64,000 nucleotides of DNA from Muricea muricata. Taxonomy: Eukaryota > Cnidaria > Anthozoa > Malacalcyonacea > Plexauridae. Positions 652 through 50,867 of this stretch are shown piece after piece. Location: the NCBI GenBank assembly GCA_963855995.1, contig OY979729.1:7396115-7460114 (forward strand), given 5' to 3'. How positions within the stretch are numbered: the first letter of the stretch is position 1; the number at the start of each line of letters is the position of its first letter. Under the pieces are notes generated by a model. That model saw nothing but the letters and a program-made list of their open reading frames with translations. It did not search any database and had not been told where the DNA came from. The translations under genes and the position numbers were made by a program.

Positions 652-913
652 ATGAAAAAATTGGTTTTCATTTCGACAAAGATCACTGTTGGCCTTCTTA
701 TCTTGATATGCTTTGGGGCAAGTTTGGTCACCTGTAATGAAAGTATACCTTTCTGTGAAGAGCAATTGCAACGACTCAAACAGGACGTGGAAGTTTGGAA
801 TGAAAGATGCTGGAACAATACTGATCAAGGAACTAGTACACCCTACTGTGAAGCAGAGAAAGAATACAATCAAGAGAGGATGAAAATGCATGTTGAGATG
901 TGCTTTTATTCAG
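652..913 (+). CDS. Exon 1 of YWTD-propeller gene: signal peptide and Cys-containing ectodomain
   Basis: The product starts MKKLVFISTK, followed by a hydrophobic run (ITVGLLILICFGASLVT), a clear signal peptide. After it comes a polar, helix-prone segment with four or five cysteines and two N-glycosylation sequons (NES, NNT). The reading frame ends at CAG|GTTAGA; the donor GT is at 914-915, and one base (G at 913) is left over, giving phase 1. Exon 2 begins in the complementary phase, which recreates a glycine codon. Met652 is preferred because it begins the signal sequence and has G at -3. In-frame ATGs at 610, 616 and 619 would add 11-14 residues before it. The short Cys domain is not a family I recognise. 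Secretion or surface display is inferred from the signal peptide. Confidence 0.72.
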
Positions 914-1869
914 GTTAGAGTTTTATTATGAAAACAAATTGGGGGTTAAGGGTCTTTATCACTCACTTGCAGTTTTATCAGGATTAATGAAGATCTGTTT
1001 TATGTTTAAAAACATACTCAACACCATTGATTCAACATCATTATAAGTGTTGTTTGGCGCAACATGTATGTACATGTTTGCCTCGTTTGTAGAATGTGCT
1101 GAATGATGTTGAATCGATTTTGAACAAACTTCAATGTATGCTAGCCATCCCCGCATATTTTGTTGTAGCATAATTTGACTCATAACAGGTTTCCGTGGGT
1201 GGGGTTAGTGCAAAAAGAGTACTGCCCGGGACTGAGGACATGAGTTGCCTTGCTAATTTATGCAAGGAAGCTACCACGAGTTTTTTCATAATGTATTACC
1301 GTGATGTGACTGACGATTATGATTGACGTTTTTTAAGCATTATGTCATTAGAAACGTAGACAAATACAAGATAAAACATATTCTGAAGAAATACATCTTG
1401 CAAACTCAATCCTCGAGTTAAAATAATGTTTCTCAATTTTCTTAATTTTTCAATTGATGTATTGATGATTTTGAAATAAAACCGAAATATTAGTCTCAAC
1501 CCTTTCTTGTTTTTACCTCAAGTATTGAGTTTACCAGATGTATTTCTTCGGAACATGTTTTATTTTGTATTTAAATACATCGCATTAAAGTTCATTAGTT
1601 TTCTGTTCGGAAAGAAATAATACGGACAGGCATGTTTTCTGGTGTTATAGTTTAACAAAATCCTTTAAGCGAACACATTGTTTCTGTGTGTCAGTTTTCT
1701 CAATTTTGCAATTGATGTATTGCCAGGGCGGGGTGGTGTTTTCTGTGTCCCCAGAGTAGGCATATTCACTAACAATTTTTCTCCTACCATTGAGAATTAT
1801 AAATTGACTGATTCATCATGCATGCCATGTTCCACAATGGTAAAATCATGCTGCTGCAGTAACAGTGAC
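914..1869. other. Intron 1, left part: no gene seen
   Basis: This is AT-rich intron sequence with scattered stops in all frames. A short imperfect inverted pair around 1010-1125 (ATTGATTCAACATCATT and AATGATGTTGAATCG) with GGCGCAACATG between looks like a small MITE remnant. No domain was recognised in any frame. Confidence 0.4.
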
Positions 1870-2470
1870 GCGCAACGAGACGACTGTTAGGATCTTTTAT
1901 TGACATAAGCCACCACTTGAGAGAGTAATTGTGATCTATGTGAATTGTGAATTTGTTACCATAGAGGTTGTTTCGAGACATTCTGATGTCAGAAACTATT
2001 GCTAAGGCCTCCCGTTCAGTTGGACTATAATTTGTTTCACTGGGACTCAGATCTCGACCACCATAAGCAATTGCACGTTCACGCCTCTCCTGGATTTGGT
2101 CCAACGAAAAGCCAATGTCCGTTGCAGATGCATCAGTATATATGCATTTCAAACTGCAAAGAAAAATCGAGATAGGCAAGTATAGGGGCTGAAACGAGCG
2201 CGGATTTAAGAAAGTTAAATGCAACGTCGCAGGCTTGATCGCAAGTATAGGGAACATTCTTCTGTGTCAAACCACAGTCAAACGGTGAGCGGCGATGCGG
2301 TGTGTGCGAAATCTTGAATGAACCGGTGAGCAACTATGTGGCCAAGGTGTTCAACATGTGGCCTAGCGAACGAGCATTTCTGTGGTTTTAGTTTGATGTT
2401 TGCTGTACGTAGACAAGCGAAGATTTTTAAGACATCGTTTTTCAGACCATCGTGAGTGACAAATGTAGTT
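1870..2470 (-). pseudogene. Ty3/gypsy pol fragment: end of RT and RNase H
   Basis: Read on the minus strand, the right part (about 2340-2460) encodes the end of a gypsy reverse transcriptase with motifs like IKLKPQKCSF and HLGHIV. The left part encodes an RNase H domain with YTDASATDIG, the SPTEREALAIV motif and FTIHIDH. The two lie in different frames (around 2133-2330 and 1784-2257), so at least one frameshift has broken the gene. No LTRs were found near it, so it is a decayed internal fragment, antisense to the host gene within intron 1. Confidence 0.82.
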
Positions 2471-3289
2471 TTTGGTTTTGAGTGGTCATTGACTTGTCAT
2501 CGAAGATCCAATATGAAGTGGTAGTAAGTTCCTATGCGTCTTGTACTCGAGAAAAGAAATGAGAATCAAGACGACCTACCTTGTTCTGATCGAGATAGTC
2601 GACGCAATCAGTGTCTCCTTTTCTCGTCACGATATCACCAAGGGCAGCCCATGGACTGAGCGATGGTTGTATGACGCCTGGTTTAAGCTACGTTTTTACG
2701 TGTGCATCAGTTTTTTCCACGGATCGGAGGAGAAACATGGCATGGAGGCTTTCTAATTGGACGCTCATTGCCTGTACCATTGCGATGCTGAACTAAAGTT
2801 GTATGACCCAATTCTTGATCGTTCACAGCAAACACGTCACGGTTTACTTCAACGAGCGGAGTTAGATGCTCGTCTTCATTTAAATCATTGTCACAGAGAT
2901 CGGCAAAAAATCGTTAGACTGGGAGCTCCCGTAAGTGCACAGTGTCTGTAACGGCAACTGTAAATTATTCAGAGGCACCAAATTGATCCAAAATCGTCTG
3001 TCGATAAATGGTGATAGGCTGAGATGTAGGGCTACAGACGTGGTAATAGAAACGCTCTGGGAAAAAAATTGACCAATTTATTTCCTCAAATTTAGCATTC
3101 CTCTAATCAATTTTGAAAAGTTCGTTTAAAGGTTCACGGCTTCCTGATTGTTGAAAAATCAGAATGCACACCAATAAGATATAGCATTCTGACTAGTCAA
3201 TTAACATGAGGTCAGTTGTAAATCTTTCAGGAAACGTTTCAAAATTTTGAGGAATTGATCAGAGCAATTGCTAAGCTTGAGGAAATGAA
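2471..3289. other. Intron 1: no gene seen
   Basis: Short open frames at 2541-2951 overlap each other, carry no recognisable domain and are treated as chance. The stretch at 3080-3290 is AT-rich, with repeated TTGATCAGAG-like words but no clear repeat structure. Confidence 0.35.
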
Positions 3290-3292
3290 TTA

Positions 3293-3424
3293 GCCCCCGT
3301 TTAATACGTAGCATTTCAGTCGCCTCGAATGTAATTCAAGCAATAGATAATGAGATGGCTAAATTTATTATCTATTGTTTGAGTTGCGTTCGACGCGACT
3401 GAAATTCGACGTATAAACCAGGCC
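3293..3424. mobile_element. Tourist-like (PIF/Harbinger-type) hairpin MITE with TTA duplication
   Basis: This is a 132-bp near-palindrome. The left arm from GCCCCCGTTTAATACGT through AAGCAATAGATAAT is mirrored by the right arm from ATTATCTATTGTTTGAG to ACGTATAAACCAGGCC, with about 60-bp arms and a short loop. Direct TTA copies flank it at 3290-3292 and 3425-3427. A 3-bp TTA/TAA duplication with GGC-type ends is the hallmark of PIF/Harbinger MITEs. A Harbinger transposase pseudogene lies at 33.6 kb in the same window, but its termini were not compared. Confidence 0.8.
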
Positions 3425-3427
3425 TTA

Positions 3428-4424
3428 GTCAACTTGCCTATTGCGGTGACTGTAAGCAATTGAAATAGGACGGAATTTTCGTCTGCTAGTTTGACAAGAA
3501 TGGCTGCCCTGCAAAGGCCATGGCGTTCTGGCGTGCGCAGTAACTAAACCAGTCGTGTTATGGGATGAAACACCAGTGGGTATTCCCCTGCGTTCATCTA
3601 AAATTACAGAAAATGGCGGTAGTACCCATGTAAGAGAGTACAAAGCAGATTTTGTTGAGGAAAAGGAGCTGGCTTATCCACTGTTTGTGGGGGCAGGGAA
3701 AGGTGACCAGGGAAGTTAACTGACAATGCGACAAAAAGTCAGCGCACTGTATGGCGTGGAACATTAGGACCAGAAATACTGCCGTGGATCACAAGAGAAT
3801 TGTCACAGCAGGAAACACAAGCCCATCTAAATCTGAATTTATTAAAACATCTATGTATATCTATCTAAAAAATAGTGGGACAACATCAAAATGCTATTTG
3901 GTTTATCACTGAAGTTAGTCGAGCAAGCTTGTGAACGGTTCTATACTAGTAGACAAACAGCTCGCAGATGTTATTCTAGACTTGGATCAAGTCCGTCCCT
4001 TTTTAGGTCAAACGGGTCAAAAAAGTGGCCAGCCAAGTGAACGATTACAGGGAGAGACGGATTTGGCTCACCTGCAGTGTTTCAAAAATATATTTTTGGC
4101 AGGAAATAAAATAAATAGACTTGATGTTATTTTAAACGGTTTCAGTAAGCAAACCCAGCAACCTCGTTTTAACAAGTTATGACGTGTTACCAACCGAAAA
4201 ATAGGTCAGTAAAGTTGGCGCGCTTGCAGGTTAGCCAAGACCGTCCCTCCCTCAAAAGTTCCTGCGTAATTTCGACTCCTCGGACTCTACAGAGAGATGA
4301 ACTTGATCCAAGTCTAAGGCCATTGGACAATGCTTTTATTGTGTGTCGAGCGCGATATTACCCCTCTGCACGTCCAATCTATTCCAGTTATAAGCGTTCC
4401 AGATTCGTATACGATTTCCCCTGA
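3428..4424. other. Intron 1: no clear gene; possible BEL/Pao upstream remnant at the right end
   Basis: Open frames at 3931-4182 and 4179-4424 (+) abut the BEL/Pao integrase scrap that begins near 4425 and may be decayed pol upstream of it, but no motif was recognised in them. The rest shows nothing. Confidence 0.3.
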
Positions 4425-4933
4425 GCACAGAACGTGTGGATACGTGAAACTCAAGGCCAAGTTTGCTCTAATGAGCTTGCAAACATGAAGACCAAGACGA
4501 CGATTCGAATCACCTTAGCTCGACAACTCCGGCTTTTTCTCCTAGATGAAAATATCACTCCTTGCGGAGGAAGAATTCGCAACGCACCTTTGCAGTTTTC
4601 ATCAAATTTTCCAGTTTTGCTCCCTCCGAACCACCTTTTCACCACGTTAGTGGTTAAACCACACCCTAACCCACGTAGGCCAGCACTACTGGATTCCGAA
4701 AGCTCGTCAGTTTCTCAAGAAGTTGCCACGTCGCTGCGTAACGCGTCGCAAAGTTAATAGAAAACCGTACAAGGCGCCTGACCCACCACCATTTCCCTAC
4801 CTTCGACTGCTCGACTTGCTCCCATTTACTGTCACTAGAGTAGATTTTACCGGCGCAGTTTACGTGAAAACCTCGAATGCGTAGCTGATCTGACAGTTCC
4901 AGGCTTTGTCGCAGCGTTTCGACTTGTTAGTAA
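4425..4933 (+). pseudogene. BEL/Pao integrase fragment (zinc-binding region and start of core)
   Basis: In the plus frames one reads QVCSNELANMKTK, CGGRIRNAPL and LLPPNHLFTTLVV, the typical lead-in to the H2C2 zinc-binding region of BEL/Pao integrases. After a frameshift near 4700 come PDPPPFPYLR and VTRVDFTGAVYV, the start of the integrase core including the first catalytic Asp (VDFTGA). The frame then decays and is cut by the MITE at 4934. The remaining DDE residues are not visible downstream. This is a third BEL/Pao lineage in the window, in the opposite orientation to the two at the right end. Confidence 0.72.
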
Positions 4934-5147
4934 GACTATGTGAACACGAGGTCGTTTCCGAGCGTTTTCACATAAGATAAATTCAAATTAATCTCAACTA
5001 TGAAAACTTTTCATCGCATGAAGTGTTTAGCTTTTGCCCAAAGACGAGGTTCATGCTCGTTTTCATTAAATTTTGTCAACAAGCCTTGAGGTTCCTGAAA
5101 TAATTCGGAATGAAAACGCTCGGAAACGACACCGTGTGCACGTAGCC
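4934..5147. mobile_element. MITE with about 40-bp terminal inverted repeats
   Basis: The left end GACTATGTGAACACGAGG continues to GTCGTTTCCGAGCGTTTTCA. The right end is the reverse complement of GGCTACGTGCACACGGTG followed by the same GTCGTTTCCGAGCGTTTTCA. The flanks are TAA on the left and TTA on the right, which is suggestive of a PIF/Harbinger-like target but is not an exact direct duplication. It interrupts the BEL/Pao integrase remnant. The interior is AT-rich and non-coding. Confidence 0.75.
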
Positions 5148-5447
5148 TTAGTCGCCAATTCCTAACCTCTTCACGAAGATGATTCCTGTGATGACCCCAC
5201 CTTTATGTCTAAAGCTGCTTGTCAAATCGAACATCAAGCGTAGCAAAAAGACTAGTTAGTGCAACACTTTCGGAACCACTGGCGTCAAGAAAACTTAACT
5301 TCCTTATGTGAATTTTTAAAGTCTGTGGAAAGAACGAAGTAGAAATTAAAGTCAGTGATATTAGTACAATTGTGGCCACGTTAACACGAAATGCGTCAAA
5401 TGGATACTTGCGGCTGTAGAACGTCTCATTGAAAACGAACAAGCAAC

Positions 5448-5464
5448 GGGGGGGGGGGGGGGGG
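5448..5464. repeat. Poly-G tract (17 G)
   Basis: An uninterrupted run of 17 G in AT-rich intron DNA. It is one of eight G or C homopolymer runs of at least 10 in the window. Confidence 0.95.
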
Positions 5465-6060
5465 CATTATTGCTGCACAAACGATGCCCTGCAAGCATAT
5501 CCACTGGAAAAAGTCACTGGCAAAGAATCGGAGAAAAGGAGAATCCAATCTGCCCTTGTATATATGACAGTTTCATGTTTGCTCATATGACAATGTGAAC
5601 CTATGATTTAGAAGAAATAATCTATGGGGAAATGTTCAAACGTTCTAGCTACTACGAATATTTCATGTTTTTGGGCAACAGTTGTTGGTTATGCATGTTT
5701 GTCGGATGTAGTTGTTTTCCACAGTTATATCTTACATAAATTCTATCTACGCTGTTTAAACACACTGATCTCATAGTAAGTGGTTCAAACATGGCAGAAA
5801 TATAGGGAATAATATACAGATTACATAATTATACATTCGCAAGATCCTGCCTGTTCCAAAATTTATACACGTCAGGGCAAATGAGAACACTTTGGAAACT
5901 ATGTAATTGATAATATGAAAATAGTGGTGAATTTTTGTTTACAATTTTTGAATCTATGGGCTGGAAGGTAGAAAAATAACCAAATGATTTGGATGCTGAT
6001 CTGTAATCAATAATCACTACTTATTGTTTTATTTGAACGTGTATGAAAAATGACCCGGTT
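5465..6060. other. Intron 1: no gene seen
   Basis: AT-rich, with stops in all frames. No repeat or domain was recognised. Confidence 0.4.
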
Positions 6061-6330
6061 GGCAGTTTATTGTGATAGACTATCTCTTTTAGTTGCAAAA
6101 ATGTGCAATGTATAAATTGCTGAGTCAGCAAAAGTTGCGACGTCACTGGTTGGGTTAAGTTTGTTTAATAAGTACAACAGCGAGCATAGCTCAGTTATCA
6201 TTAACTCAGACACTACATGATAAGACGCATTGAAGAACATTTTCAATTTGCTGTCAAGGTAACACTGTCGTCCACTGCTCCCTCGCATTGTTTTTGTAAA
6301 ACAGCTGTATACTGGAAACTTAGGATAACA
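6061..6330 (-). repeat. Interspersed repeat X, copy 1 (reverse orientation)
   Basis: It shares AATTGCTGAGTCAGCAA, GCGACGTCAC, GAGCATAGCTCAGTTA and CAGCTGTATACTGGAA with the copies at 8.66, 9.34 and 27.1 kb. It is non-coding and looks like a short non-autonomous element. Its ends could not be fixed because the copies are diverged and mutually nested. Confidence 0.65.
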
Positions 6331-6419
6331 TAACATCAGAAATGGGTCTACTGCATATCTATACCTGTACATGACTAATTGTCCCTGAGAGGATAATAAT
6401 TTTAAAAAAATCCTACGAG

Positions 6420-7260
6420 TAGAAAGTTATAGAAATTCCTTTACAAGGGCTTCGAGACGACAGTGTTATATTACCAGCAAAATTTAATATCGTCTTCAAT
6501 GCGTCTTGTCATGTAGTATCTGTGTGTAAAATTTTGTTGAGTTAGACGACATTTACGGATCCGCATAGTCACGATATCAAATTGGAGAGTTTCAAGACGA
6601 GTTTAGCTCTTAAATATATGATAATATGACAGAATTTAATAACAACTACTGACAGAAAAAATGGTAAGAGTAAATATAACCACAAACTGCCCGAGCTCGA
6701 TGTCATGACCATACGGATCAGGTATCGTGTAAATGGCATCTTCGAGTTAATAATAACTGAACTATGCTCTGTTTAGCCTGTGCACAGACCTAAATGGAAA
6801 TGATTAAGGTCTGTAAATACTTGAAAGATTTCTTGTCCATGCATGAATTAAATCTCAAGTATTAAAGAATTAGAACGTTATAAAACATTAATTGATGTGT
6901 TTAAAATGGCGTTTTTTGGCAGAAAATTTTCAATTTGCTTTAAAGTTTAGCATGCCCATTTTTTCCTGTAAAAAAATCTTTACGATAAATTGCACTAGAC
7001 GCAAATATTTGCAATGTAAACCTAGAATAATATTAAGCATATTTAACTTAATTTGGTTCTCATTCTCTCGGCCAGGACAAGCAATTCTTCAAGTCTTAAT
7101 AAACCTTACTCTTTTAGAGTTCGGTCTGTGAACAGGCTATGCTCTGTTTTGTTTTCGTTAAACATGCTTACCCAATAGCAACTAGTGACGTCACAGCTTG
7201 TGATGAATTGGTAATTTATATTTTGCTCATTTTTGCGAATAATTTGGAAACAAATGCAGT
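6420..7260 (+). repeat. Interspersed repeat X, copy 2 (forward, interrupted)
   Basis: Segments at 6425-6545 (GTTATAGAAATTCC, CGACAGTG, CTTGTCATGTAGTA) and 7140-7250 (TTAAACATGCTTACCCAA, GACGTCACA, TTTTTGCGAATAA) correspond to the two ends of the intact-looking copy at 27.1-27.35 kb. They are separated here by about 600 bp of unrelated AT-rich DNA, probably an insertion. Confidence 0.55.
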
Positions 7261-7631
7261 GAACTGAAATAATAAGAATATTGTAAAATAAAATAATAAG
7301 AAGATTGTCAATACTACAATATTGTAATAAGAATATTGGCAGAATATTTAGATATTACAATTGTTATCGTCACATGATGTCATATAAGAAACTTTAATTT
7401 TGGTCTACGAAATGAAGAATAGTGAAAAATAATGCTAGCTAATCGCGCCGTAAAGGTCCGGCTCATTTCACCGAGCAAGATTGTTATTGCGATTTTTAGT
7501 GACTCTTTTTGTATCTACACTAGTTGCACTTACAGCCCATAAGCATACTGAATTCACTGTCAACACACAATTATAACATTTTAAAGTGTTTCTAAAAAAT
7601 AATCCGTGTTGATTTATCATTATTTCTGCAG

Positions 7632-8013
7632 GTCCATATCCCGAACCTTACTTGTTAATCAGATCGTGGAATGAAATCCGGGCGATTGATTTGTTAACTC
7701 TGGATACGACTGTCGTCATCAGTGGACTTACAGGTCGGGCGATGGATATTGACACTGTTGACAAGAAATTATACTTTCGCAAGGGAAACAATATATCCAG
7801 AGCAAACTATGATGGCAGCAGCGAGGAAGTTATTGTACAGAATGCTGAACCTTGGAGAGTAAGGGTGGACTGGAAAGGACGTCGCATATTCTGGACAAAA
7901 GGTCCTTTTGCTAATAAAGATATTTCCATGGCGACTTTAAATGGGCAGGAAAGAAGATTGCTTAAAACAACAGAGAACTGGGCTTTGGATTTGGCAGTAG
8001 ACTCGAACGCAGG
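7632..8013 (+). CDS. Exon 2: first half of a YWTD (LDL-receptor class B) beta-propeller
   Basis: The acceptor is TTTCTGCAG at 7623-7631 and the donor is AGG|GTGAGT with GT at 8014-8015. The 382-bp exon enters in phase 1 and leaves in phase 2. The product has three blade-like repeats, each with the LDLR-B pattern: LIRSWNEIRAIDLLT (blade 1); MDIDTVDKKLYF then ISRANYDGSSEE (blade 2); RVDWKGRRIFW then ISMATLNGQERR (blade 3). It ends LDLAVDSNAG, the opening strand of blade 4. Such propellers act in extracellular ligand binding and endosomal release in LDLR, LRP and nidogen. The ligand here cannot be inferred. Confidence 0.88.
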
Positions 8014-8019
8014 GTGAGT

Positions 8020-8655
8020 TTTATTGACTTGTAAAGGTTAAATTTTATCACTTTCTATTTCATTAATGATAAAATATTCAGTCGCTTGCGTGTAAAAAGC
8101 TCTCGTCGACTTCACTAGTGCGACCAGGTAACACATGTCCCGTACATACACACACTATGTGACGTAATACGTATTGTACTATCTACTGAATGATTATGCA
8201 GCTCATCGCCTAAAATTTTAAAATAAATTTATATTTCTACAATTTCTGCAGAATTACAAGTAAAATCAATTTACTACTGTTTAGAATAAAAAGTTACTTC
8301 TAATACGTGGTTCAAACACCACATTCTGTACGAGCTGAATTAGATAATTAAGTTTTATGCATGTAACATACACCCAGAGCGGACCAGAGACATGCGCATC
8401 CCTGGCAAAGATTCACCTGCACTAAATTGAGTCCTGGCAAAGTTTCATGTTCCATCCTGTAGTGGTATAGTAGTTTAGAAGGGTCCGGGAGCGTATGAAA
8501 TCCGAGGTCACAGCAACGTGAATGCAACGTCTAAATGAATTAGAATTGGCAGGTATTATGCAGCCACATGAATTTACAACTGAACAAGTTCGACAACACT
8601 CCATGCATTAAAGGTGTTAGCAATATTTTTTTATTCTTTATGTGAAAGAGCAAGG
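8020..8655. other. Intron 2, left edge: no gene seen
   Basis: AT-rich intron sequence after the exon 2 donor. The short minus-strand frames around 8422-8734 have no recognisable content. Confidence 0.4.
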
Positions 8656-8659
8656 CCGT

Positions 8660-9536
8660 AAAAATTGTACCTTTCTCTTTTAGTCGCGAAGTTATTCGCA
8701 AAAGTCTAAAACCGGAAAATTGCTGATTCAGCAAAAAAATTGTGACGTCATTACTTACATTTTATATTTTACACGCTTTGTCACATCACATTACGAGCAA
8801 ACCAAAAATACAAAAGACATTACGTGACAGGGTTATCACAACAGCTTTTGGTCTATTACTGTGATCCCAAAGAGACATTAGTGATTGCAAAGACATGCAC
8901 GAGACACGTATACAAAGTACATGCAGGATACATACAGAATACATACATGAACGCATACAGAACGATTTAACCCCGTTCCCAAAACCACGCGAGCGAGCTG
9001 AAAAAATATATAATGTTGCAAATGTCATGTTTCTATCACGTGAAATGGCATAAAATAGAAAAGATGAAACCTAGACAGAATATATTAGAATATTTTAAAA
9101 TATGCGAATAAATGTTATAAAAAACAATCAGAAATTACTTATTGGAGAGAAAGCATATACAATGATAGAGAAACACAAAATTCAAAAACTTTAAAAAATT
9201 TGAGCTGCGTGAGCGTAAGACACGTCTGTCTTGCACCCCTGCCTCGGTCTCGCAATTTCGTAAACCGTCGCAAATGTAATCAATTTATGTTTTCAATTCG
9301 GTCACTTGTATGATTAAATCTATCCAGTTCTAAACTTCTAACCATCTAACAGCCCTATACTAGTTGGGCAAGTATGTTATAATGAAGGAAAAACCAAGCA
9401 TAGCTCAGTTACTATTACCTCAATCACAATGACATTTTGCCCACAGATCAGGTCCCGCGCACGGTTTTTATAGCGCAGCTGTATACTGGAACTGGTTATG
9501 ATAACATAATATCAGAATGTGTCCGCTATATCTATG
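8660..9536 (-). repeat. Interspersed repeat X, copy 3 (reverse, split)
   Basis: The segment at 8680-8760 (GAAGTTATTCGCAAA, TTGCTGATTCAGCAA, GTGACGTCAT) and the segment at 9355-9536 (TAGTTGGGCAAGTATG, GCATAGCTCAGTTA, CAGCTGTATACTGGAA) match contiguous parts of copies 1 and 4. About 590 bp of other DNA has been inserted between them. The 3' LTR of the gypsy element at 9537 interrupts this copy, so repeat X was here first. Confidence 0.55.
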
Positions 9537-9737
9537 TGTAACGTACTGAGACACTCTAAATAACACTCTCAACTTTTAACAATTTATTCAGTACCGTTCA
9601 AACATGGACAACCATTCTCTCCGGGTGCACAGTCACTCTCCCTCGATTACATGAATCCCTACTGCTTAAATCCTTAATGTTAATTATTTATAATATTCTG
9701 TCATAACAGTGTCAAGCAATTACAACATCATGTTACA
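9537..9737 (-). repeat. Gypsy element 3' LTR
   Basis: The plus strand reads TGTAACGTACTGAGACAC through ATCATGTTACA, so the LTR has TG...CA ends on either strand. It aligns along its full length with 24430-24632 at roughly 90 percent by eye, including CTCTCCGGGTGCACAGTCAC and CCTCGATTACATGAA. The flanking 4 bp TATG is matched at the far end of the other LTR. Confidence 0.85.
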
Positions 9738-10061
9738 CTATCCCTCAACAATAGCACCCATGCCTATGCACAAATAACAATAGTACAAATATGTCTGCCC
9801 CCCACGAAAGCCGTACTGATCAGGCGCATGAACATTTTGCCTGAGATTCCTGGGCCTAACCCCTGGGATATGTGGAGCATTGTCGCAGTGAGGTTGAACG
9901 TTGTCTGTGGGAATAGTGTAAATCACCTGGTCGCTCCCAAGTTCTAGAGCAGGGCAGACAACCTTGCCCTTATCCGCTGGTGCGTAGCCAAGTTTCAACC
10001 AATCTTGATGAACCACCGTAATCTTACTTGTGCTCGATCTTATTTTGTTGTCGACACCCAT
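9738..10061 (-). pseudogene. Gypsy pol 3' end (integrase C-terminal region)
   Basis: The minus frame carries KIRSSTSKITVVHQDWLKL, the conserved end of Ty3/gypsy integrase that is usually written VVHxDRLKPY. It is followed by an acidic, Pro-rich tail that runs to a stop at the LTR border. The upstream integrase is absent. The usual Arg of DRLK is replaced by Trp. Confidence 0.75.
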
Positions 10062-10079
10062 CCTCTAAACGATTTCAAA

Positions 10080-11530
10080 TGGCAACATATAACACTCCTT
10101 GCTATCGCGTGCTCACTGGAGGATGCACGCCCCAAGAGTACAAAGAAAGCAAGGTGAAATGCAGGGCATTTCTTGGGCATGACCATCCTTTAATTAGCTA
10201 CGAAGGGCATAAATACCCGCTATAAACATAAGTTGACTTATATTTGATAAGATTAAATATATATACACTTGAGACGGTTTTCCACACAGTTGAGCAGTCA
10301 TACCCTTTACAGGTTAAAGTCAACTCGCAGAGCTAACATGCGAAATGTTAAGTCTTGGTTTCCAAGAATGCTGCCACAGTTACCAGGGCAAAATGCGTTT
10401 ATATAAGGCGGTAAAAGTCCATACAATCTAGCACAAATTCTCGAAAGACATTATATTCGCCGCAAATCAACGGCCAAAACGGAGCTGAATACCAAAGTGG
10501 AATAATGAGTGTTCCCTGAGCTTTGCAATTGGACATATGTAAAAGAACGCGGGGTATAAGACAAATAGGAGGACAAACGTAATTGTTCTCCCCGCTCCAA
10601 ACCATGCTCAAAAACTTTGCGGACGACTGGACAGCAACATGCAATGGATTACAAAATTCCGGATAATTTGCAAATTTTTCGCACACATCCTCTGGCCAAC
10701 AATTCCGAAATGGCTTCGCGAACAAAACTGTCTCTGAGGGTGGCTGAAGAGCGATTTTCAATTTAATATGGCGGGGGAGTAATTTGAAAGGGAATTTTGT
10801 AGCCATGCTAGCTCTATGATATCTAAAACAAATTCTGAAGCACAAATAGTGTCACGCCAAAACGACGCACAAGCGCGAAGTTTACCATGAAAAATTTCGG
10901 AATAATGCACTCCTTGTTCGATTTCCCAACAATATTCAGCTGCAGGAATGTTAGGCTTTTGACTTGTTCCTGACAGAACAGGAACTAGCCCAATGTCCTC
11001 GTTTGCCCCATCGAAAACACAAGTCGAGAGTTTTGAAGGAGTGGGCACAATGTCACGAGTATCTACCTTGGAGCCGAAAATACGCGAAATTAGGTGGGAG
11101 GGGCCCATGTGCAACACTGTAACGAGTAGAGACAAACAGACAATGGCAACTGAGCTTGTGCTGTCAACAGATTTGTTTGAAGATCCTGTATTTGAGAATT
11201 CACGGCTAAAAGAATAGCGTGCTTTTGAGCCTCTAATATATCGCCCAAATCAGTCGGGATGGGCGCTGCTGAGGAAGGTTGTCCCGATAGTATAGAATGA
11301 CTGCTTCTTTCCTGTTGTTCTTCCGCCATGAACGACGCAAATGTATTTCAATTTTGTGGGATGCTGGAGTTTAGAGATGATAATTTTTGAGTGAACCTCC
11401 AGCGAAGACACCAAGATGAATAATACCATGCAACGCGACCTTATATACTCTTACCAAATCCCTTGGGTATGCATACCCATAAGAGCATATTTTTCCGCTA
11501 ATTAGCAAACGCGGAAAAATACATGACTTT
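10080..11530 (-). mobile_element. DIRS-type (tyrosine-recombinase) retrotransposon remnant
   Basis: ORF1 begins at 11329 on the minus strand (MAEEQQERSS..., then a helix-forming LGDILEAQKHAILLAVNSQ). Further on is the DIRS reverse transcriptase start: GKLRACASFWRD, SEFVLDIIE, then after a frameshift FPFKLLPRHIKLK. Then the sequence jumps to the DIRS RNase H end, WSGENNYVCPP, CKAQGTLIIPLW and FWPLIC, so the catalytic RT core is deleted. No tyrosine recombinase was seen. The right flank contains the palindrome GGGTATGCATACCC (11465-11478), and GGGCATAAATACCC near 10207 may be the matching inverted end. Confidence 0.68.
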
Positions 11531-12395: not shown

Positions 12396-12400
12396 ACCAA

Positions 12401-14784: not shown

Positions 14785-14849
14785 ACCACGTTGGAAGGCG
14801 CTGGTTGTTGCCTAGGCCTGTTGGTGTCACACCACGTTGGTGTCACACC

Positions 14850-18423: not shown

Positions 18424-18429
18424 CAGGCG

Positions 18430-33276: not shown

Positions 33277-33295
33277 GGGGGGGGGGGGAGGGGGG
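33277..33295. repeat. G-rich tract (12 G, A, 6 G)
   Basis: A G-run interrupted once by A, in otherwise featureless intron DNA. Confidence 0.93.
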
Positions 33296-37335: not shown

Positions 37336-37339
37336 GAAA

Positions 37340-40425: not shown

Positions 40426-40429
40426 ACCG

Positions 40430-41267
40430 CCTCTAAATGGTGAAAGAAATAAAAAAATTAGCATGCATTACCAACGAAGTGAAATGGCTGGAACAAATCA
40501 TTGGAAACCATACTTTGTCTATCAAACAGATGGCACAAAATATTAACAATTATTTTGCAAATGTATCAGTAAAAATTATCGATTAGAGGCGGTTCCCATT
40601 AATCAACCATTTAATGTTTCGACCTTTTTTGCTTAAAAGGTTTTGACCTGGTCAACCACGCTGATTACACAGGGTGGGCATTTGTAATTCACGTGCCCTT
40701 ATTCCTAGTACAAGTAGGAGTCTAGCCAGGCCTAAACCAATCAATGAGGGGGCGGGCGGCAATCATCCTACACGATGAAGAAACTAATCATTTTCACGCT
40801 GCCCCCCCCCCCCCCTGTATTTCTACCCGGTTTGAAACAAATTACAAATCTGGTATACGGTGCTTGTAAACCGATTGATCTAAGACTGGAAGCAGACTAT
40901 TATGATAACTATGCTGACGATTTGGCAAATATAAAATTATTCTGAGATGTTAACCTGCCCTATAACGCCGCTATAATTGGTCAATGATGCACACACGATG
41001 AAGCCAGAGCATGCGTTTTATAAAATGTGTGAGAAAAGGTTGAGAGAATTTCTTCAATACAGACTACCATTTAAGGCTACATTCGCAAGCACGCAATTGA
41101 AAGAGTATCTTCCTACAAAACTAATTAGGGATCTCTCTTGGAACACAAAGATTAAAGATATTATAAAAAAAGCTAAGCAAAGATTATACATCCTGTCTAC
41201 GCTACTAAAAACAAGGATCAAACTTTCGGAGCTAGTAACGGTCTACTCGAGGATCCAATTGCGCTGA
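40430..41267 (+). pseudogene. LINE-type (non-LTR) retrotransposon pol fragment
   Basis: At 40440-40590 the frame reads VKEIKKLACITNEVKW and NINNYFANVS, the linker between endonuclease and RT in many LINE pol proteins. At 40977-41265 it reads MKPEHAFYKMC and then LIRDLSWNTKIKDIIKKAKQ and RLYILSTLLKTRI with SELVTVYSRIQL, the RT C-terminal thumb region. The catalytic RT centre between them is deleted or decayed, and a poly-C run lies in the middle (40802-40815). The clade is not determined. Confidence 0.7.
40802..40815. repeat. Poly-C tract (14 C)
   Basis: It lies within the decayed LINE fragment. Confidence 0.95.
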
Positions 41268-43635
41268 TGTCATAATCCTTGAGTTGCGTTTCAGATTGTT
41301 AGTTAGATACTTTTAATTAAAATATTTTTTTATTCAAAGTTTCTAAGTCATATAGAGTCAAAGTTTACGAGTATGTTTGAATGACACAGAATTAATCACT
41401 CTTACATTTGTGTTGCCATAGTAACTTAAGAATTACTTCCAATCAGGAAAATGTGTTTGCGCACTTTAACATGCACAAAACATGCACGTAATATCAAACG
41501 CAGGATAGAAAATATTATACGAATATATATAAATGTATACTAATAGTAAACTTTACTAAGTTGTACTTTTTGCCGGCTGTAATACCTGTGCAGAACTGTT
41601 TTATAGCTATCATCATAGTATCATGGATATTGCCGTGATATATAACAACATTAAAAATTTAGAATTCATTCGGTATTAAATTCAGAAGAATTTTTGTGAA
41701 GGTGAACGAGAAGCTATTGAAGAAAACAAACTGTTTGCAATCATTAAAATAACTTAATAAATAGAGAAATATATATGCCATTGAAACGCACAAAATAGAG
41801 TAAACCAATTGCATACCATTATTTGCTCTCGGTGAAGTCATGGTTTATCATGGCTGTTCTACATTGAACTCGATTTCTTGGGTTTTAATAATTATATCTT
41901 AGTGTTTTAAAACCATGCGCTTGTTTGAGCAAATGGTGTAAGCACCCGATCTTTCTAAAATTAGCAAAGGTTGAAAAATTATTTTATAAGTCTACCTTAA
42001 AAGCTTATATGATTGAAATGGAGCAATCGGAGTGAGGACCTTTTCGACTAATGTTGTCAATATTTCAACATTTTATCAAAATACACATTATTTAAATGTT
42101 TGTACAAATATATAGTTTGTGCACCAGACGCCCACTGTGACGGCATGGGTATGCAAAGAGCATATTAGAATCATCGCAGTTGTTGAATATGCTGTACTGG
42201 TGTGGTTATCCAGCCATCCATTGGTTTTTCGGCCAATAATTTTCCGGGTGTAGTCGGCAACTTACCTGACTGTCGTGAAAATTGCCCAAGTTTAGTTTGT
42301 TACTGATAGTCATATATAAACGTCATTTCAATGGACTCGAAGTGCTGCCTTTTCTGTTGTACAAGATTACTTTTGTCCTCCATGTTTCTCAGATGGCACT
42401 ATAATTCATTGTTCGACACTGGCAATGTGTAAATACTTCAAAGGTGAAGCAAATACTACAAAAGAAAAGTTGTTATAGAAAACAACATTATCAGTTCTAT
42501 ATACACCGATGTGAAAAACTGCACGTGAAAAACCAACAAGCAAGGTCTTAAAATAAACAATAATGAGAAAATGTGTCCTGTTTATTTTTCTATTACACCC
42601 GGCGTTTTAGCCGTCTGGCTTTAGCCATCCAGTCAATAAGGGCACCTAAGAAATGATGCAGATGCAGTGCATAAGGCAGCGACATCTCGAGAAATACTTC
42701 GTCGCAATGGTTTAATGTAGGTTTTAAACATCTAGTTTCTATCCAGGAAGGCACAGGAAGTACTCGAAGGATCTAAGACATCATGACGTCAGAAAGTTTT
42801 TTAACAAGGCTAAAAATGTTTGAAAACGTTAAGAGGTCTTGGATATTTTTAAGAGTTCTGGGTCCTCAGTCTTATCGTTGCGCCACTGCACTTTTTCTAG
42901 TACACTTTTAACCTAGTTAGTACAGTACTTTGACAACTATTCCCCCGACTGTGAAGAGAATATACACCCTGCCCGGTACGCCCAGGAATCAGTCCCAGAA
43001 TATCTAGATATTACCTTGGAAAGAGTAAAAGATGGCACTGACGATAATAAGGGGCTCAGGGTCTCTTATAACGAGTTATTGAAAAGAACCGACCTAGAAA
43101 AAACACATTAGAAAGCAAATAACATTCTGTAAAAGGTTTGCAAATGAGCAACAAATTATTAGGACCTCCCAGATGTGTGTTAAAGAAATGAAAGCTATAG
43201 TATTGGGCACAACTGATAGGCTTTTAAATTCAAGTATTAATAGATTATAATCAGACTTGTAACCTTTAAAACTCTATGTTAATCAAGTGCTAACTTAACT
43301 TAGGACAGGCTGCAAGCATTTTAATAAATATTTAATAAATCAGGGACGTGTCGAGCGTGCTGAGTGAGGGAGATTACACCTCAACGAGTTTTCGATTCGG
43401 ATAGTCAAGAGTTTTTCGAAAGCCTATGTCTAAAAATGTGGAGGCTCTCAAATTCAAATAATCGGAGAATAAATTCTTACATAATTAATTTCACAGCTTT
43501 GAACTGCTTCATGTTAATTAAGGAATGTCTGTAAAAAAGAAACACTAGGAAGAATTCAAAGAAAGAAGAAAACAACAAAATGTTGCATGCTAGCGTATCT
43601 TATCAATGTTATCATGTTCTTTTTTGTCTCTGTTT
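41268..43635. other. Intron 2: no gene seen
   Basis: AT-rich. One 60-codon frame (41659-41841, minus) is hydrophobic by chance composition. No TIR, repeat or domain was recognised. Confidence 0.4.
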
Positions 43636-43639
43636 TTGC

Positions 43640-43985
43640 TGTCAAGTTTACCTGGCTTATCCAAGCATACAACCACAGGCACACCGACTTTGCGATTGAT
43701 GCTGAATTATTTTCCCACTCAGTCTAGGATCTGCATATGATTTAATTAGCATTCCATTTAGGACAGAGTATTCAACTGTTTTAGGAGAAGTTCACCATGA
43801 CCGTCAACATAGTAAGGCTGCCTGAGAATCAATCTGGGACGAAACATCAAACTTACCACACCAAAAAACAACGCTTTTGCAACAGTGGTATCTACCAAAG
43901 CATAAAAGCTTAAGTCATTCTGAAGTTCTTACCCAGATCGAACAGATATCACGTTTTTAGCGGTGATCATTGGGAAGTATGAAGT
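43640..43985 (+). repeat. Diverged relative of the 45-48 kb foldback arm
   Basis: GTCTAGGATCTG, GCATTCCATTTAGGACAGAG, CAACTGTTTTAGG, AGTTCACCATGA and GGGACGAAACATC occur in the same order and spacing as in the left arm at 45.56-45.67 kb. AAAGCATAAAAGCTTAAGTC and TCTGAAGTTCTTACCC continue the likeness. It is an older single-arm remnant. Confidence 0.6.
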
Positions 43986-44770
43986 TCCTAGCATTGATAC
44001 TTAAAGAAATAGCCATGCAATACCCGTGGCACAGTATAGGGAATGAACATTTGGACCACTCAGCAGTGCAACATGTCCCCCTATTTTTATGCAATTAATT
44101 GTTCCAATCACAGATAATGGCCAGACAGCCAGTTCAGCGTTTTTATTGGTCAGAAAATGCGTCAAAAAAACGTCCGCGGAAAAACGTCTGCGTATGCGTC
44201 AATTTAATTGACATTGGTGCTGCGAACATATTATTGAAGCTATAAAAGTGTTCTGAATATTTAAAATGGAAGCCTAAAGGAGTGACCCAGATGGTAGCCT
44301 ATTATAATATAGCTATGATGAATCCTGAACACTCATTGCTTGAGAGCCCTGTTGATATATTAAACTGTATGCCAACAAGGAAAATTTCTCGTCGCATGCG
44401 TTCAAGTTATTTTATATTTTTGTTGCTATACTGTTTCGGACGTAGTAGCTAAGACAATCATTATTTTATTCTGTTAATTAATACGAGTAATTTATGCATG
44501 TTGATTTACATATTTAATCTGATTACCCGCTGATTCATTGATGATTCGCACGCCGTAATTCGATATAGGATAAGAATAGCTTTGCGCAAAGTGTGCGACA
44601 ATAACAAAATGCGCTCAGACGTTTAGATAAAACTCGAACAGAGATAGTTCCAGGCTGTAGAGATCCACTCTTCAGAATGATAGGATATATAATGTCCAAT
44701 TTCAAATATAATTACTGAAAAATCTCTACGGTTTGAGTATGATTTCGTTCATTGGCAACATATACAATTA
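43986..44770. other. Intron 2: no gene seen
   Basis: AT-rich sequence between two repeats. Nothing was recognised. Confidence 0.35.
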
Positions 44771-44966
44771 AAGAAATATAAAACTTTTCTCCCTGTTGAT
44801 ATGCAGTTATATCAACCCTCCTAATTGAAAAAACTTGAAATTTTGTGAAGACACTCCGCCCTGCGGCCGTACGTTGTGTTTCCATCAAATTTCTCGTTTT
44901 TCCAATTTCTACTCGTGTTGATATAACTGTATATGAACACAGAAAATGTTTTATATTTATAGAGAA
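44771..44966. repeat. Inverted-repeat hairpin, possible MITE
   Basis: AAGAAATATAAAACTTTTCT and GATATGCAGTTATATCAA at the left pair with TTGATATAACTGTATATG and ACAGAAAATGTTTTATATT at the right (arms about 45 bp). The loop contains GCCCTGCGGCCGTACG. Confidence 0.6.
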
Positions 44967-46468
44967 AGACAAAGACAAGAAATATAAAACATTTCCACCA
45001 CTTAAATAATATAGTATTCACCATATTTTAAAACAGTTTTGACCAGATTTTCCTGGTTTAACCATCGATAAATAATGACAGAGCCGTGGCCTTGACATTT
45101 TTACGACGATACATGAAGGCTGATTAGTGAATAGAGACTAAAAATTGAACTTGTATTCCAAGCTTAACACACATCCTAATCTACAGCATTATTTGCTAAA
45201 TTCTAGTTCCAGCACAACCCGTCTACTAATAATTTTCTATTACAGGGACCACAGAGCAATTTTTGGATTGAGGGGGCCGAATGCTTAGCTTCCCAGGGGC
45301 GGAAGGGGGCCAGGGCAACAATCAAGTCCCCATTCTTGCTTCGTTCTTTTTCAACTTTTTTCCGTTTTTTTCATTTTTTAAGTTTTTTCCTTAAACTATC
45401 TTGCAGTTGCGACGTGTTCATGTTTCTTGTTTGGGTTCTTTATTAGTAAATACTGGAAAAAATATATGTATGTTATTTCGACGCCAATCCTTTTGCTCGA
45501 TGTCAGAGTGCGTCTTCCCAAAATCACAGCCAAAATGTTAATGAGGTGCTCTTGATCTGTAGTCTAGGACCTGTCAAGGACTTTGCATGCGTTTCATTTA
45601 CCCCACATAATCTCAACTGTTTTGGGGTGAGTTCACCATGACGAACAAGGACGGGACGAAATATCCGAAAACGACACCTGCAGAAATAACCCTCTCGTTA
45701 GGACTACAACTTCTGAATCATTAGAGATACATTTGTTTTTAAGCTTTTATGGTGTTCAGAGTGGTCACATTAGGGGTGGTTGTTAGGAAGCAAAAAATCT
45801 CTAGCTTTAATATATTCCAAGAATATGGTCATACCTTATCATGGGAAAATTGCTGAATATGCATAATTTAAGTTACAACATTGGCAAAGTGGATTATTTA
45901 TATTTTTTACGAAAATTTTTTCACTGTTGTCAAACTTCACACTTGTTTAAACATAATTCTCGTATTCTACATAACAGAGCATGCAAACCTGCCGATATAT
46001 AGTGCCGATAAATTTACTCACCGACGCCATTTTGCGAATTCGGCCTTGTGTTGCAGATTCCTTAGCTTTTCACGGTCGTATACTTCACACGAGTTTTAAC
46101 TGTAGCACACGAACAAACGGTAATGTGGTAAACTTTGGAAGCAAAAATTAAACAATTCGACTCGCAGGTTTTGATGCAAACCACTCTGAAGAAATTCCAT
46201 CACGGGGCAACCGGTCGCCAATTTCAAAACACACACGAACTGCACGAAAAGAACGCGCGAACTTGATGACAGGGGGGATTGCACATTTTCACGATCGACG
46301 CTCGTGCGAGGACCTGAATATAACCAAGAAAGTAATGTTGTTTAGCACAAGATACTTGTTTTTGAATTGTTTCTCAAAAATATTTTTGACATGTTTATGT
46401 TGAAAATAGCGATCTGAAGAGCTTGCTTTCATTCGACTCATGGGTTTGCTGTGGTCCTCGCACGAAAA

Positions 46469-46478
46469 CCCCCCCCCC
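46469..46478. repeat. Poly-C tract (10 C)
   Basis: It lies near the centre of the foldback palindrome. The mirrored position on the left arm (46271-46277) is a G-run. Confidence 0.93.
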
Positions 46479-47159
46479 GTCATCAAGTTCGCGTGTTCTA
46501 GATCTTTTCGTGCAGTTCGTGAGTGTTTTGAAATTGGCGACCGGCTGCCTCGTGCTGGAATTTCTTCGGAGTGGTTTACATCAAACCTGCGAGTCGAATT
46601 GTTTAATTTTTGCTTCCAAAGTTTACCACATTTATACCGTTTGTTCGTGTGCTACAGTTAAAACTCGTGTGAAGTGTGTTACATGCTATATTTCGAGAAG
46701 ACAAGTGACATGACCCAAAGTTGAAGCTATAATTCGCCAAAACAACACTTCGACAACATCGAAGATTTTAAATTCACAGAAGCAACGGGATTCGTTCAAA
46801 GCCATTAAGGATGTTCTTCTAATAGTACCTAGCAAAACCAATGGCATTTTGCGGATCATCAAAGCAAAGTACGACGGTGAAAAGCGAAGGAATCTGCAAC
46901 ACACGGCCGAATTCGCAAAATGGCGTCGGTGAGTAAATTTATCGGCACTATATATCGGCAGGTTTGCATGCTCTGTTATGTAGAATACGAGAATTATGTT
47001 TAAACAAGTGTGAAGTTTGACTAAAGCGAAAAAATTTTCGTAAAAAATACAAATAATCCATATTGCCGATGTTGTAACATAAATAATAATATACAAGGAA
47101 ATGTTTCTGGGCTGTGATTGGTTGATTCGAGTGCAGTTAATCCCAAACATCACCCAGAA

Positions 47160-47243
47160 CAGTGCAAAAATCTGTAACAACAGTGCAAAAATCTGTAACA
47201 ACAGTGCAAAAATCTGTAACAACAGTGCAAAAATCTGTAATAA
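47160..47243. repeat. 21-bp tandem repeat
   Basis: Four copies of a unit AACAGTGCAAAAATCTGTAA plus C. Found only in the right arm of the foldback element, within its extra segment. Confidence 0.96.
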
Positions 47244-47540
47244 GCTCTTTGAGCGATGGAATTTACTCGCAGAAAAAACAAAAATATGGCGGCCGAATTT
47301 TCACGTTTGCTTAAAGATTTCGTCGAAATTTCAACACAATTTGGAATTCTTCTCTGACAATTATGATCACAAAACAAACTCTAAAGTATGCTGGAACTTT
47401 GTACATAAAATTTTTAGCCATGGCTTTTATAAACATGAATTTTTTAAGCGAAGAAATTCGAGAATGAGTGCACTTGCATAATGCGAAGTTGTAAGTACAA
47501 AATGCTTGTTTGAACATTTCCTTTTCATATTATTAATAAG

Positions 47541-47697
47541 TAATAGTATAATTTCTCGTGCAATTACGGAAAACAAGCACTCGTGAGTTTTTAAAAACCG
47601 CAAATAGCGCTCGTCCTTCGGACTCGCACTATTTTGCAGTTTTTAAAAACTCACTCGTGCTTGTTTATCCGTAATTGCACTCGAAATTATACTATTA
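47541..47697. mobile_element. Nested hairpin MITE (157 bp)
   Basis: TAATAGTATAATTTC, CGTGCAATTACGG, AACAAGCAC and GTTTTTAAAAACCGCAAA at the left are mirrored by GCAGTTTTTAAAAAC, GTGCTTGTT, CCGTAATTGCAC and GAAATTATACTATTA at the right, giving a nearly perfect 70-bp stem. It lies in the right arm of the larger foldback and is absent from the left arm, so it is younger. Confidence 0.85.
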
Positions 47698-48121
47698 CCT
47701 ATACTTATGCATATTCAGCAATTTTCCCATAATAAGGTATGACCATATTCTTGGAATATATTGAAGCTAGAGATTTTTGCTTCCTAACAACCACCCCTAA
47801 TGTGACCACTCTGAACACCATAAAAGCTTAAAAACAAATGTATCTCTAATGATTCAGAAGTTGTAGTCCTAAGAAGAGGGTTATTTCTGTGGGTGCTCAT
47901 TTTCGGACATTTCGTCCCGGATTCAGGTTTGGGCAAATATGCCATCTTGTTCATCATGGTGAATTCACCCCAAAACAGTTGAGATTATCTGGGGTAAATG
48001 AAACAGATACAAAGTCCTTGACAGGTCCTAGACTACTGAGCTGTAACGCTACTTATTGGAAAAACGTCAAGTAGCACTGGTTATAATTAACCGCCATTCA
48101 ATCAATCACAGGAAAATTATT

Positions 48122-48131
48122 GGGGGGGGGG
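48122..48131. repeat. Poly-G tract (10 G)
   Basis: Located just inside the right end of the foldback element. Confidence 0.93.
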
Positions 48132-48171
48132 CAAGGCCTTTGGGCCCCCCTCCTCCGCGGTCCCTGTATTA

Positions 48172-49787
48172 GCGTTTACACAACTGCCGGGTCAACCCTT
48201 TTACACTTCGCCAACCTGGGGCGCCCTTCTCGAGACCTGGGTTGACCCAGGTTGACGAGGTACGTGTGAAAGCATGAAGATTGTGCGTAAATCTTAATGT
48301 AAACCTGGGTTGACCTAAAAACTACAAAATATCGACGCACATTCATATCGAATGAAGTTATATTCATGATTATAAATGTCAGAATTCAACGTCTTTCGGG
48401 ATATAACTGAATGACTGAAAGTGAAGATTCATCACAAAAATAATGATGTTTCTTGTCCTGTTGCCTCTAGAAGCTTTAGGATAATCAGAATAACAGTAAT
48501 ATGTTTTATTTAAAAAGTCGACCTTTTATTTACGTGCTGCACAAGTACAATATGTCAGGCTATAAAATAAGGACCATGATCAAAAGGTCTAAGGCAAAAT
48601 AGAATAGGATATGGGTACAAAATTGCCGTAACTTACCAACCTGGGTTGGCGCAACCTGACCCGGGTTGAAAACAAAGACCGGCGTTTTTACCATCCCGGG
48701 CTCGTGTAAACCGAGAAATTAATGTTTTTAATCTTTGCCGACCTGGACTCAAACGGGTGAGGCCGACAAATTATTTAACGCGTTTCAACGTGCATGTATG
48801 GCCATCATTTCTGACGGTACAGAGTTTTTGCTGGGTTTTACAAGAATTTGCAAGTACAACTGAAATTTTAAAAAGACAAATAGTCGGAATGGGGTTTTAC
48901 AGATAAATTTTGGCTTTATTTGTTTCTGCTATTTTTACATCAAGGAGATGACCTTTTTAACATTAGTCTAGAGGGAAACAATGTGCTTTTATGTGTTTGT
49001 CTGCGCTACTTCTAACTGTGCAAAATAATCCTTTGACAACCTATAGTCCAAAATTACAATTGATGTCTTGCTGCAAGGTGATCAAAATTATTGAAACGCT
49101 TTATATAGCGGCTTTATAGTTCTCAACTCATTTGTGGAATATTTGTCTGTAGATATATACCAAAGGTTATTAATGTTTTTCTGATAGAAACATGTTTTTC
49201 TTATAAGATATGCATTGACATAATACAGTATATGTGGACAATAATGTAGTGGTTGCACAAATTCTTATCAAGAGTAGACCATGTTTTAATTGAAACACTA
49301 TCTCTGCCAGGCTACTTAAATTAGTTTAAGTCATTAAATACAAATACACCATTATTTGTCTTCATTGTCTCAAGCTGCTATAAATTAAATAATTTGGTGT
49401 TTTGTCATGACTTTGTTTTCAGATGACTGTGGACAATTTTCCAAAGATTTGACTAGATGGCCTCATTTCATGTTTCTTAATGGCTCATTTTCATACTACC
49501 CTAGGCTATACCTTGCAAAATTAAATTATGGTGTTTTTTAGTTTCTTAATAATATATACAATATTATACATCCCTAAAAACTCCATCACTGAAAAGAAAT
49601 GGTGTGGTAAAATACATTATTACAAAAGCATCATGTTTTTGATGTGGTAAGTTTCTAATGTTTCATCCAGGATGAGGGTTCAGGGCAGCATTACATTACT
49701 ATGTTGACAGTCATTGTCAATTTGCTCTGAATCAGATGAGATTATCTGCCCCAAATAAAATGTATGCAAACTTGTACACAAGTCTTA
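48172..49787. other. Intron 2: no gene seen
   Basis: AT-rich. AACCTGGGTTGAC or similar words recur at 48215-48315 and 48640-48670, with CCCAGGTTGAC in inverse, suggesting a decayed TIR element of about 480 bp between 48180 and 48710. No coding content. Confidence 0.35.
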
Positions 49788-50155
49788 CACTAACTCCAAC
49801 AGTTTACAATTGTACATTTGGATATGTCAACAGTGGCTTACTGCAAATATCAAATGTAATACACAATGTAATAAACACAATGTGATATTCAGACTTGTAT
49901 TTTGTGTACTTTAGTTTTGCTATATACTTTGACTGCTTTTGTGAAGACAACTATCCTCTTCGACTATCTTACATTAACTGGGACAGTTTACAATTGTACA
50001 TTTAGACATGTCAACAGTGGCTTAGCCGGCTTACTGCAAATGTCAAATGTTAATAACACAATGTAATATTTAGGTCTTATATTTTGCGTACTTCAATTTT
50101 GCCTTATACTTTGACTGCTCTTGTAAAGACAACAATCCTCTTCGACTACATACTT
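49788..50155. repeat. 184-bp tandem duplication
   Basis: Two copies with a 184-bp period. ACAGTTTACAATTGTACATTT is at 49800 and 49984, GTCAACAGTGGCTTA occurs in both, and both end GACAACNATCCTCTTCGACTA. Copy 2 has a small insertion (GCCGGCTTA). It lies about 320 bp upstream of exon 3. Confidence 0.88.
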
Positions 50156-50478
50156 ACAACTACGTATGTTCATTTGCATCTGTCAATCACTTCTGACGTC
50201 AACATGCAGTTAATATGTTAAATGTCCATTATTATACCTAACTCAGTCAAGTTAAACATCAAGCAATTATGGTATTGAGTTCGGATAATCAGCGGAAAAA
50301 GTGAAAACTTACACCTAATCATATTGACTTCGACCAATTTGGTATTTTGGCTTTTGACTCTGCCTTGCTCAAAAGTGGTTTATCATTTAACAGTTATACT
50401 TGTTTTGAAACGTTAAAATTAAGTTTTCATTGTACTGGTAAATATTTAAGATTTATCTTATCCATTCTTGGTTTATAG
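50156..50478. other. Intron 2, right edge before exon 3
   Basis: AT-rich. The acceptor region TATCCATTCTTGGTTTATAG ends at 50478. No other feature. Confidence 0.5.
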
Positions 50479-50867
50479 GTATTTATTTTGGCAAGAAGGT
50501 GGAGGGTTTTTACGACGTATCAGTTTGGCTACTCACGAGATGCTGACTTTGGAAATGAGGGTTATTGTTGGTTCAATTATTAAACTTGACTGCGTCAAGA
50601 AACAAGTGTATGGTTTCAAGCAAAAATCCGGTAATGAGTATATATCTGCAAGTGATTATGATGGCGGAAATCAGAGGAAGATCACTAGTGGAGCATTTAG
50701 GTATTATATACTCGGTGTATTTAATGGTTCGCTGTACTTCATGAATAACGATAGATCACAGATAAAGGAAATGGATGCATCAAACGAGACTGTTATTCGA
50801 AGAATTGCAGTGGACAGAAATGACTACGGGGACCTGATTGTTGTACACAACTCTCTGCAACCATTAG
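50479..50867 (+). CDS. Exon 3: second half of the YWTD beta-propeller
   Basis: The acceptor is GGTTTATAG and the donor is TTAG|GTAAGT with GT at 50868-50869. The exon enters in phase 2 and leaves in phase 1. Joining to exon 2 across 42.5 kb restores the blade 4 motif: exon 2 ends AVDSNAG and exon 3 opens YLFWQE, the YWTD position. Blade 5 follows (IIKLDCVKKQVYGF, SASDYDGGNQRKI), then blade 6 (LGVFNGSLYFMNN, IKEMDASNETV), then DLIVVHNSLQP. With exon 2 this makes six blades and about 256 residues, the usual size of the domain. A phase-1 end is typical where an EGF-like exon follows, as in LDLR and LRP, but no such exon was seen before the window ends. Confidence 0.87.

Follow-up and report, generated by a model that had tools for sequence, protein, structure and literature searches.

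The 64-kb window, by which we mean the whole stretch of DNA that was analyzed and within which all positions are numbered, contains three exons on the forward strand. Their presence is confirmed; they lie where the sequence-only reading had placed them, with GT-AG borders throughout and matching phases of 1/1 and 2/2 at the two junctions, and the 42.5-kb intron it had described is also found. The exons are 262, 382 and 389 nt in length. Joined, they give 1033 bases without a stop, i.e. 344 codons plus one base. The coordinates of these exons, and of the features in and between them, are summarized in Table 1.

Table 1. The three exons, their introns and the sequence features that they contain, in window numbering
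Feature	Position	Strand	Description
Exon 1	652..913	+	Start codon, signal-peptide-like N-terminus, Cys-rich segment; phase-1 donor CAG|GTTAGA
Signal-peptide-like segment, residues 1-28	652..735	+	Hydrophobic stretch; putative end at Cys28
C35-x17-C53-x12-C66-x17-C84 segment	754..903	+	Defined by Cys spacing; proposed helical hairpin with two disulphides
Intron 1	914..7631	+	6718 bp
Retrotransposon RNase H remnant	1784-2263	-	Within intron 1; Pfam
Exon 2	7632..8013	+	First half of YWTD propeller; starts in phase 1, ends in phase 2
Intron 2	8014..50478	+	42465 bp
Foldback element	13472-15063		Intron 2; each arm an array of 22-nt units with TTGTAAAACGCGGAGTC, the arms ~97% alike
Reverse-transcriptase fragment	29407-29814		Within intron 2; Pfam
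Minisatellite	about 37321-37870		Intron 2; 31-bp unit, higher-order periods of 62 and 93 bp
Large imperfect palindrome/foldback	45556-48039		Intron 2; arm pieces 88 to 97% alike; a smaller one nested
Exon 3	50479..50867	+	Second half of YWTD propeller; starts in phase 2, ends in phase 1; donor TAG|GTAAGT

Splice sites were scored with a generic matrix. Each site used is the top-scoring one in the short surrounding stretch listed. Among the 3695 GT sites the donor of exon 2 (8013) comes 8th, that of exon 3 (50867) 6th and that of exon 1 (913) 79th, while the acceptors of exons 2 and 3 are 136th and 225th among the 3407 AG sites.

The joined product was compared with the sequences of the PDB. 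Its residues 90-342 align to residues 9-267 of LRP6 (3s8v), corresponding to one whole propeller, with E = 4.8e-21 for the two-propeller chain. A six-bladed YWTD domain can be aligned over its full length in this way, and with coding parts of 382 and 389 nt the division of one such domain into near-equal halves by exons 2 and 3 is upheld. At E ≤ 10 there are matches to 31 distinct sequences. Most rows are LRP6, and 29 of the 31 sequences are LRP2, LRP4, LRP6, LRP8, VLDLR or nidogen; the other two are ATG10 (E = 0.82 and 0.89). The best E values summed over repeats are those of LRP2 (1e-44) and LRP4 (4.2e-36), and the LDLR structure 1ijq is also matched with E = 5.4e-4. Exon 2 alone gives the first half of the propeller, its best match being LRP4 (8s9p, E = 4.6e-34 summed over repeats); it has 33 PDB rows at E ≤ 1, four of them ATG18 (E = 0.84 to 0.89). 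The matches of exon 3 alone are weak, with six rows at E ≤ 10. LRP2 accounts for four of these, with E values starting at 4.3e-5 and a short matching stretch, and the other two are LRP8 420-515 (E = 9.1e-4) and VLDLR (E = 2.1). The joined product covers LRP8 251-515, and the propeller halves are therefore in order. Across the exon 2-3 junction the alignment with LRP6 8ctg is gapless, with avdsnaGylfwqeggg set against ALDPSSGFMYWTDWGE. The homology of exons 2 and 3 rules out chance open reading frames.

In the Pfam search that the sequence-only reading had proposed for the joined product, Ldl_recept_b passes the cut-off, but just once and barely, with 21.8 bits against a cut-off of 21; DUF5050 scores 28 against 27 bits. 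The six motif positions read YFRK, FWTK, FWQE, YGFK and YFMN plus an N-terminal LIRS, such that the Asp of YWTD is conserved in none of the six and the Trp in two. Judged from its sequence this is surely a YWTD propeller domain, yet a divergent one, because the PDB homology is far above chance while the Pfam score is marginal and the motifs are degenerate. The loss of the Asp from all six positions, together with the weak score of exon 3, might instead suggest an LRP gene duplicate in decay. We consider such a pseudogene very unlikely, given 1033 bases without a stop, intact borders at every exon and a product that, while divergent, still aligns to a whole propeller. Other searches for relatives were negative. 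In tblastn the joined protein found, besides its own three exons, five matches in the window at E = 1.1 to 9.1, none of them convincing. A strict YWTD pattern had no match in the six frames of the window, but this is no test since exons 2 and 3 are themselves missed. Scans with a pattern for relatives of exon 2 matched 4 stretches in viral contigs and 34 in prokaryote contigs; none was confirmed, and this says little because these collections are not animal genomes.

The position of the 42.5-kb intron can be given to the base. It is in phase 2 and divides the codon of Gly215, with two bases before and one after, and is followed by Tyr216-Leu-Phe-Trp219. The Gly codon immediately precedes the third YWTD core motif, and so the junction is not inside the YWTD motif of blade 4, as had been proposed. 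In human LDLR intron 10 follows c.1586, the reported second base of codon 529, also Gly, with Phe530 next and Trp533 in exon 11 (PMC9291778, PMC3152176). The distance from Gly to Trp is thus four residues in both (Gly215/Trp219 and Gly529/Trp533). LDLR intron 8 is given as ending before c.1187, and the splice variants c.1987+1 and c.1988-2 mark the exon 13/14 border (PMC9917940). As reported, the LDLR borders after c.1186, c.1586 and c.1987 have phases 1/2/1 and spacings of 400 and 401 nt; here the phases are 1/2/1 and the spacings 382 and 389 nt. The phases at the propeller ends agree with those of LDLR introns 8 and 13; for these outer borders the agreement extends to phase and domain edge and no further. 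For the middle border, the register is shown against LRP6, and against LDLR it is taken from the Gly-Trp distance, the near-equal end spacing and the match to 1ijq, whose alignment was not printed. By our own arithmetic a random border would exactly meet one of the four internal LDLR introns over the 771 bases with a chance of ~1/190. Since position and phase agree with LDLR intron 10, and the phases at the ends agree as well, intron 2 appears to lie at the position of human LDLR intron 10, and the split into two halves looks like an old inherited border of the family.

In LRP5 the exact base of the exon 2/3 border is c.488. A table in PMC10133070 places this border between c.461 and c.509, which brackets the corresponding Gly codon, and in that paper the first propeller is assigned to exons 2-4. 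R266C is assigned to LRP5 exon 2 and G171V to exon 3 in PMC10474981, whereas R266C is in exon 4 according to PMC10133070. The former placement of R266C runs against the bracket and is taken as a slip. The sequence-only reading did not match the arrangement of the present gene to LDLR or LRP; the view that it is foreign to these genes is not supported, because the split agrees with LDLR intron 10 and the first LRP5 propeller is encoded by exons 2-4 in the source cited; by analogy, the order of signal peptide and then propeller also fits LRP5. That exons 2 and 3 come from different genes is rejected, since no gap opens at their junction in the LRP6 alignment and the junction agrees with an LDLR border.

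Exon 1 begins with the expected signal-peptide-like start, seen in its hydropathy, and continues with an unrecognized Cys-bearing segment having four cysteines in mirror spacing. Further in-frame ATG codons occur at 610, 616 and 619. There is no significant match to exon 1 in Pfam (best COA8, E = 0.34) or in the PDB (two rows, E = 0.34 and 1.3). From the cysteine spacing we infer that the segment folds as a helical hairpin with two disulphides. Exon 1 is linked to exon 2 because the phases match and because it is the only forward-strand candidate of its kind, by rules (ATG, signal-like hydropathy and phase-1 donor) that were chosen after seeing exon 1. With donors of at least 3 bits it is the sole candidate on the forward strand of the window and the reverse strand has four; at 7 bits the numbers are one and three, and at 7 bits with a length of at least 200 nt they are one and none. 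Exon 1 is weaker than the remaining exons. It lies 6.7 kb from exon 2 and resembles nothing in Pfam or the PDB at a significant level, and might therefore belong to another gene, with exons 2 and 3 lying within a larger LRP that has unrecognized upstream exons. That is quite unlikely in our view. Its phase 1 matches that of exon 2, under these post hoc rules exon 1 is alone on the forward strand in combining a signal-like start and a phase-1 donor, and the forward strand has no EGF or LDL-A pattern in 914-7631.

The phase-1 donor at 50867 leads us to predict more exons, and the gene may continue beyond 64 kb. In the LDLR/LRP family an EGF module habitually follows the propeller. No further YWTD, EGF or LDL-A exon was recognized in the six frames up to 64000; the patterns used, which had no positive-control trial, found no EGF on the forward strand of the 64-kb window and no LDL-A in its six frames. 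Reading past exon 3 gives ...QPL-G-K-L-stop, with the stop at 50876-50878, and polyadenylation-like hexamers occur at 51002, 51125 and 51393. Because the stop comes three residues into intron 3, a lone-propeller form would be possible, i.e. a secreted protein ending here with intron 3 unused or retained. The absence of a downstream EGF pattern in the window scan is in keeping with such a protein, and a protein carrying five YWTD repeats has been reported from coral skeleton (PMC7853314). Yet the donor at 50867, placed 6th among all 3695 GT sites, stands in phase 1 at the domain end, like the reported LDLR border after c.1987, and we regard termination at this point as unlikely.

The exons are far apart because the introns, which carry remains of mobile elements, are long. 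Mean intron lengths of 0.8 to 3.7 kb are reported for cnidarians (PMC7642931, PMC9112765), against which intron 2 is long, with the reservation that means say little about the tail of the length distribution; PMC13327316 gives a total intron length. Self-repeats within the window make up about 12% of intron 2, and for that reason the contribution of mobile elements to its growth has been shown only in part.

The probable explanation of these data is that the locus holds the 5' portion of an ordinary animal gene belonging to the LDL-receptor/LRP superfamily, comprising a start exon, a divergent propeller on two exons and further exons, with an exported product and a second intron lengthened by elements. 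A start exon in matching phase is followed in the sequence by one complete divergent six-bladed propeller on two exons. The protein is probably exported, as its N-terminus suggests, and would lose its signal peptide and fold into a small disulphide-tied helical hairpin plus the propeller. LRP propellers bind other extracellular proteins. That of the present protein may likewise bind an extracellular protein ligand, as a component of the matrix or the cell surface. Past the propeller, the phase-1 donor would lead on to more exons, where the custom of the family predicts an EGF module. The length of intron 2 most likely reflects mobile elements and repeats that built up in an old intron, and its splicing would be normal. 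This explanation is weakened by the single marginal Ldl_recept_b repeat, the weak exon 3, the lack of EGF or LDL-A patterns on the forward strand and an exon 1 without a known relative. The unusual features are modest, namely the unrecognized segment with its two C-x17-C arms, the YWTD Asp in none of six positions and the long intron. A bolder reading, which we think distinctly improbable, would make the exon-1 segment an undescribed domain, a two-disulphide helical hairpin closed between the C-x17-C arms and fused to a single propeller, giving a secreted adaptor or decoy with an LRP-type binding face but no receptor tail. Among the literature matches listed, on intron position in the LDLR/LRP family and on cnidarian YWTD proteins, there is no report of such a segment with a propeller, which is not proof of absence; none of those listed on intron position carries the term LDL receptor.

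Human LDLR, in its EGF-precursor region (exons 9-13), is similar in having a YWTD propeller, a phase-2 border in a Gly codon four residues before Trp and domain ends in phase 1. In LDLR, LDL-A and EGF modules precede the propeller, whereas here it directly follows exon 1. LRP4, the top match of exon 2 (8s9p), is a large receptor with several propellers. LRP5 has its signal peptide in exon 1 and nothing else before the propeller. LRP5 and LRP6 differ from the present gene in having an additional intron (exon 3/4) within the propeller; they have four propellers, EGF modules and a Wnt-signaling tail. The first propeller of LRP5 resembles that studied here in directly following the signal exon, on exons 2-4 (PMC10133070). 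LDLR has extra borders after c.1358, c.1705 and c.1845, unlike the two-exon propeller here (PMC3152176, PMC9291778). Amongst cnidarian proteins, CR_7 is an LRP4-like protein from the skeleton of the red coral Corallium rubrum and has a homolog in a stony coral. The five YWTD (LY) repeats of CR_7, compared by description only, equal the number of core motifs in the present propeller (PMC7853314). An LRP8-like protein is reported from the skeleton of Stylophora (PMC7115838), and the YWTD repeat is named in a figure legend on pedal disc genes of Exaiptasia (PMC6626399). Known by description, these three serve as leads for function only. An Acropora skeleton protein with MAM and LDL-receptor domains (PMC4890752) was rejected as a relative by the YWTD domain, because the matching protein is called class A in PMC7115838.

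If the preferred explanation is true, the central propeller intron shared with LDLR has persisted here while reaching 42.5 kb. Its position would then be a landmark by which widely spaced exons of LRP-family genes could be found and joined in repeat-rich animal genomes. The gene leaves the picture of the LDLR/LRP family unchanged.

The window contains a number of other elements. The Pfam scan covered 20 of the 34 listed open reading frames plus the coding parts of the three exons. No Rfam family at gathering score and no tRNA was found in the window. An isolated EGF-like match lies at 31534-31650 on the reverse strand. At 52176-57535, on the same strand, there is a BEL/Pao-like retrotransposon with DUF5641, Peptidase_A17 and reverse transcriptase above the Pfam cut-offs and two integrase matches below them. 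Its LTRs may be represented in part by two direct repeats of 123 nt, 94% alike, at 52176-52298 and 57413-57535. In the region 57800-63289 a DUF5641 match at 57800-58273 (reverse strand) suggests a second, broken BEL/Pao-like element; the other four of the five reverse-strand reading frames scanned there have no Pfam match at E = 0.01. A further foldback lies at 61485-62720, with arm pieces 92 to 97% alike.
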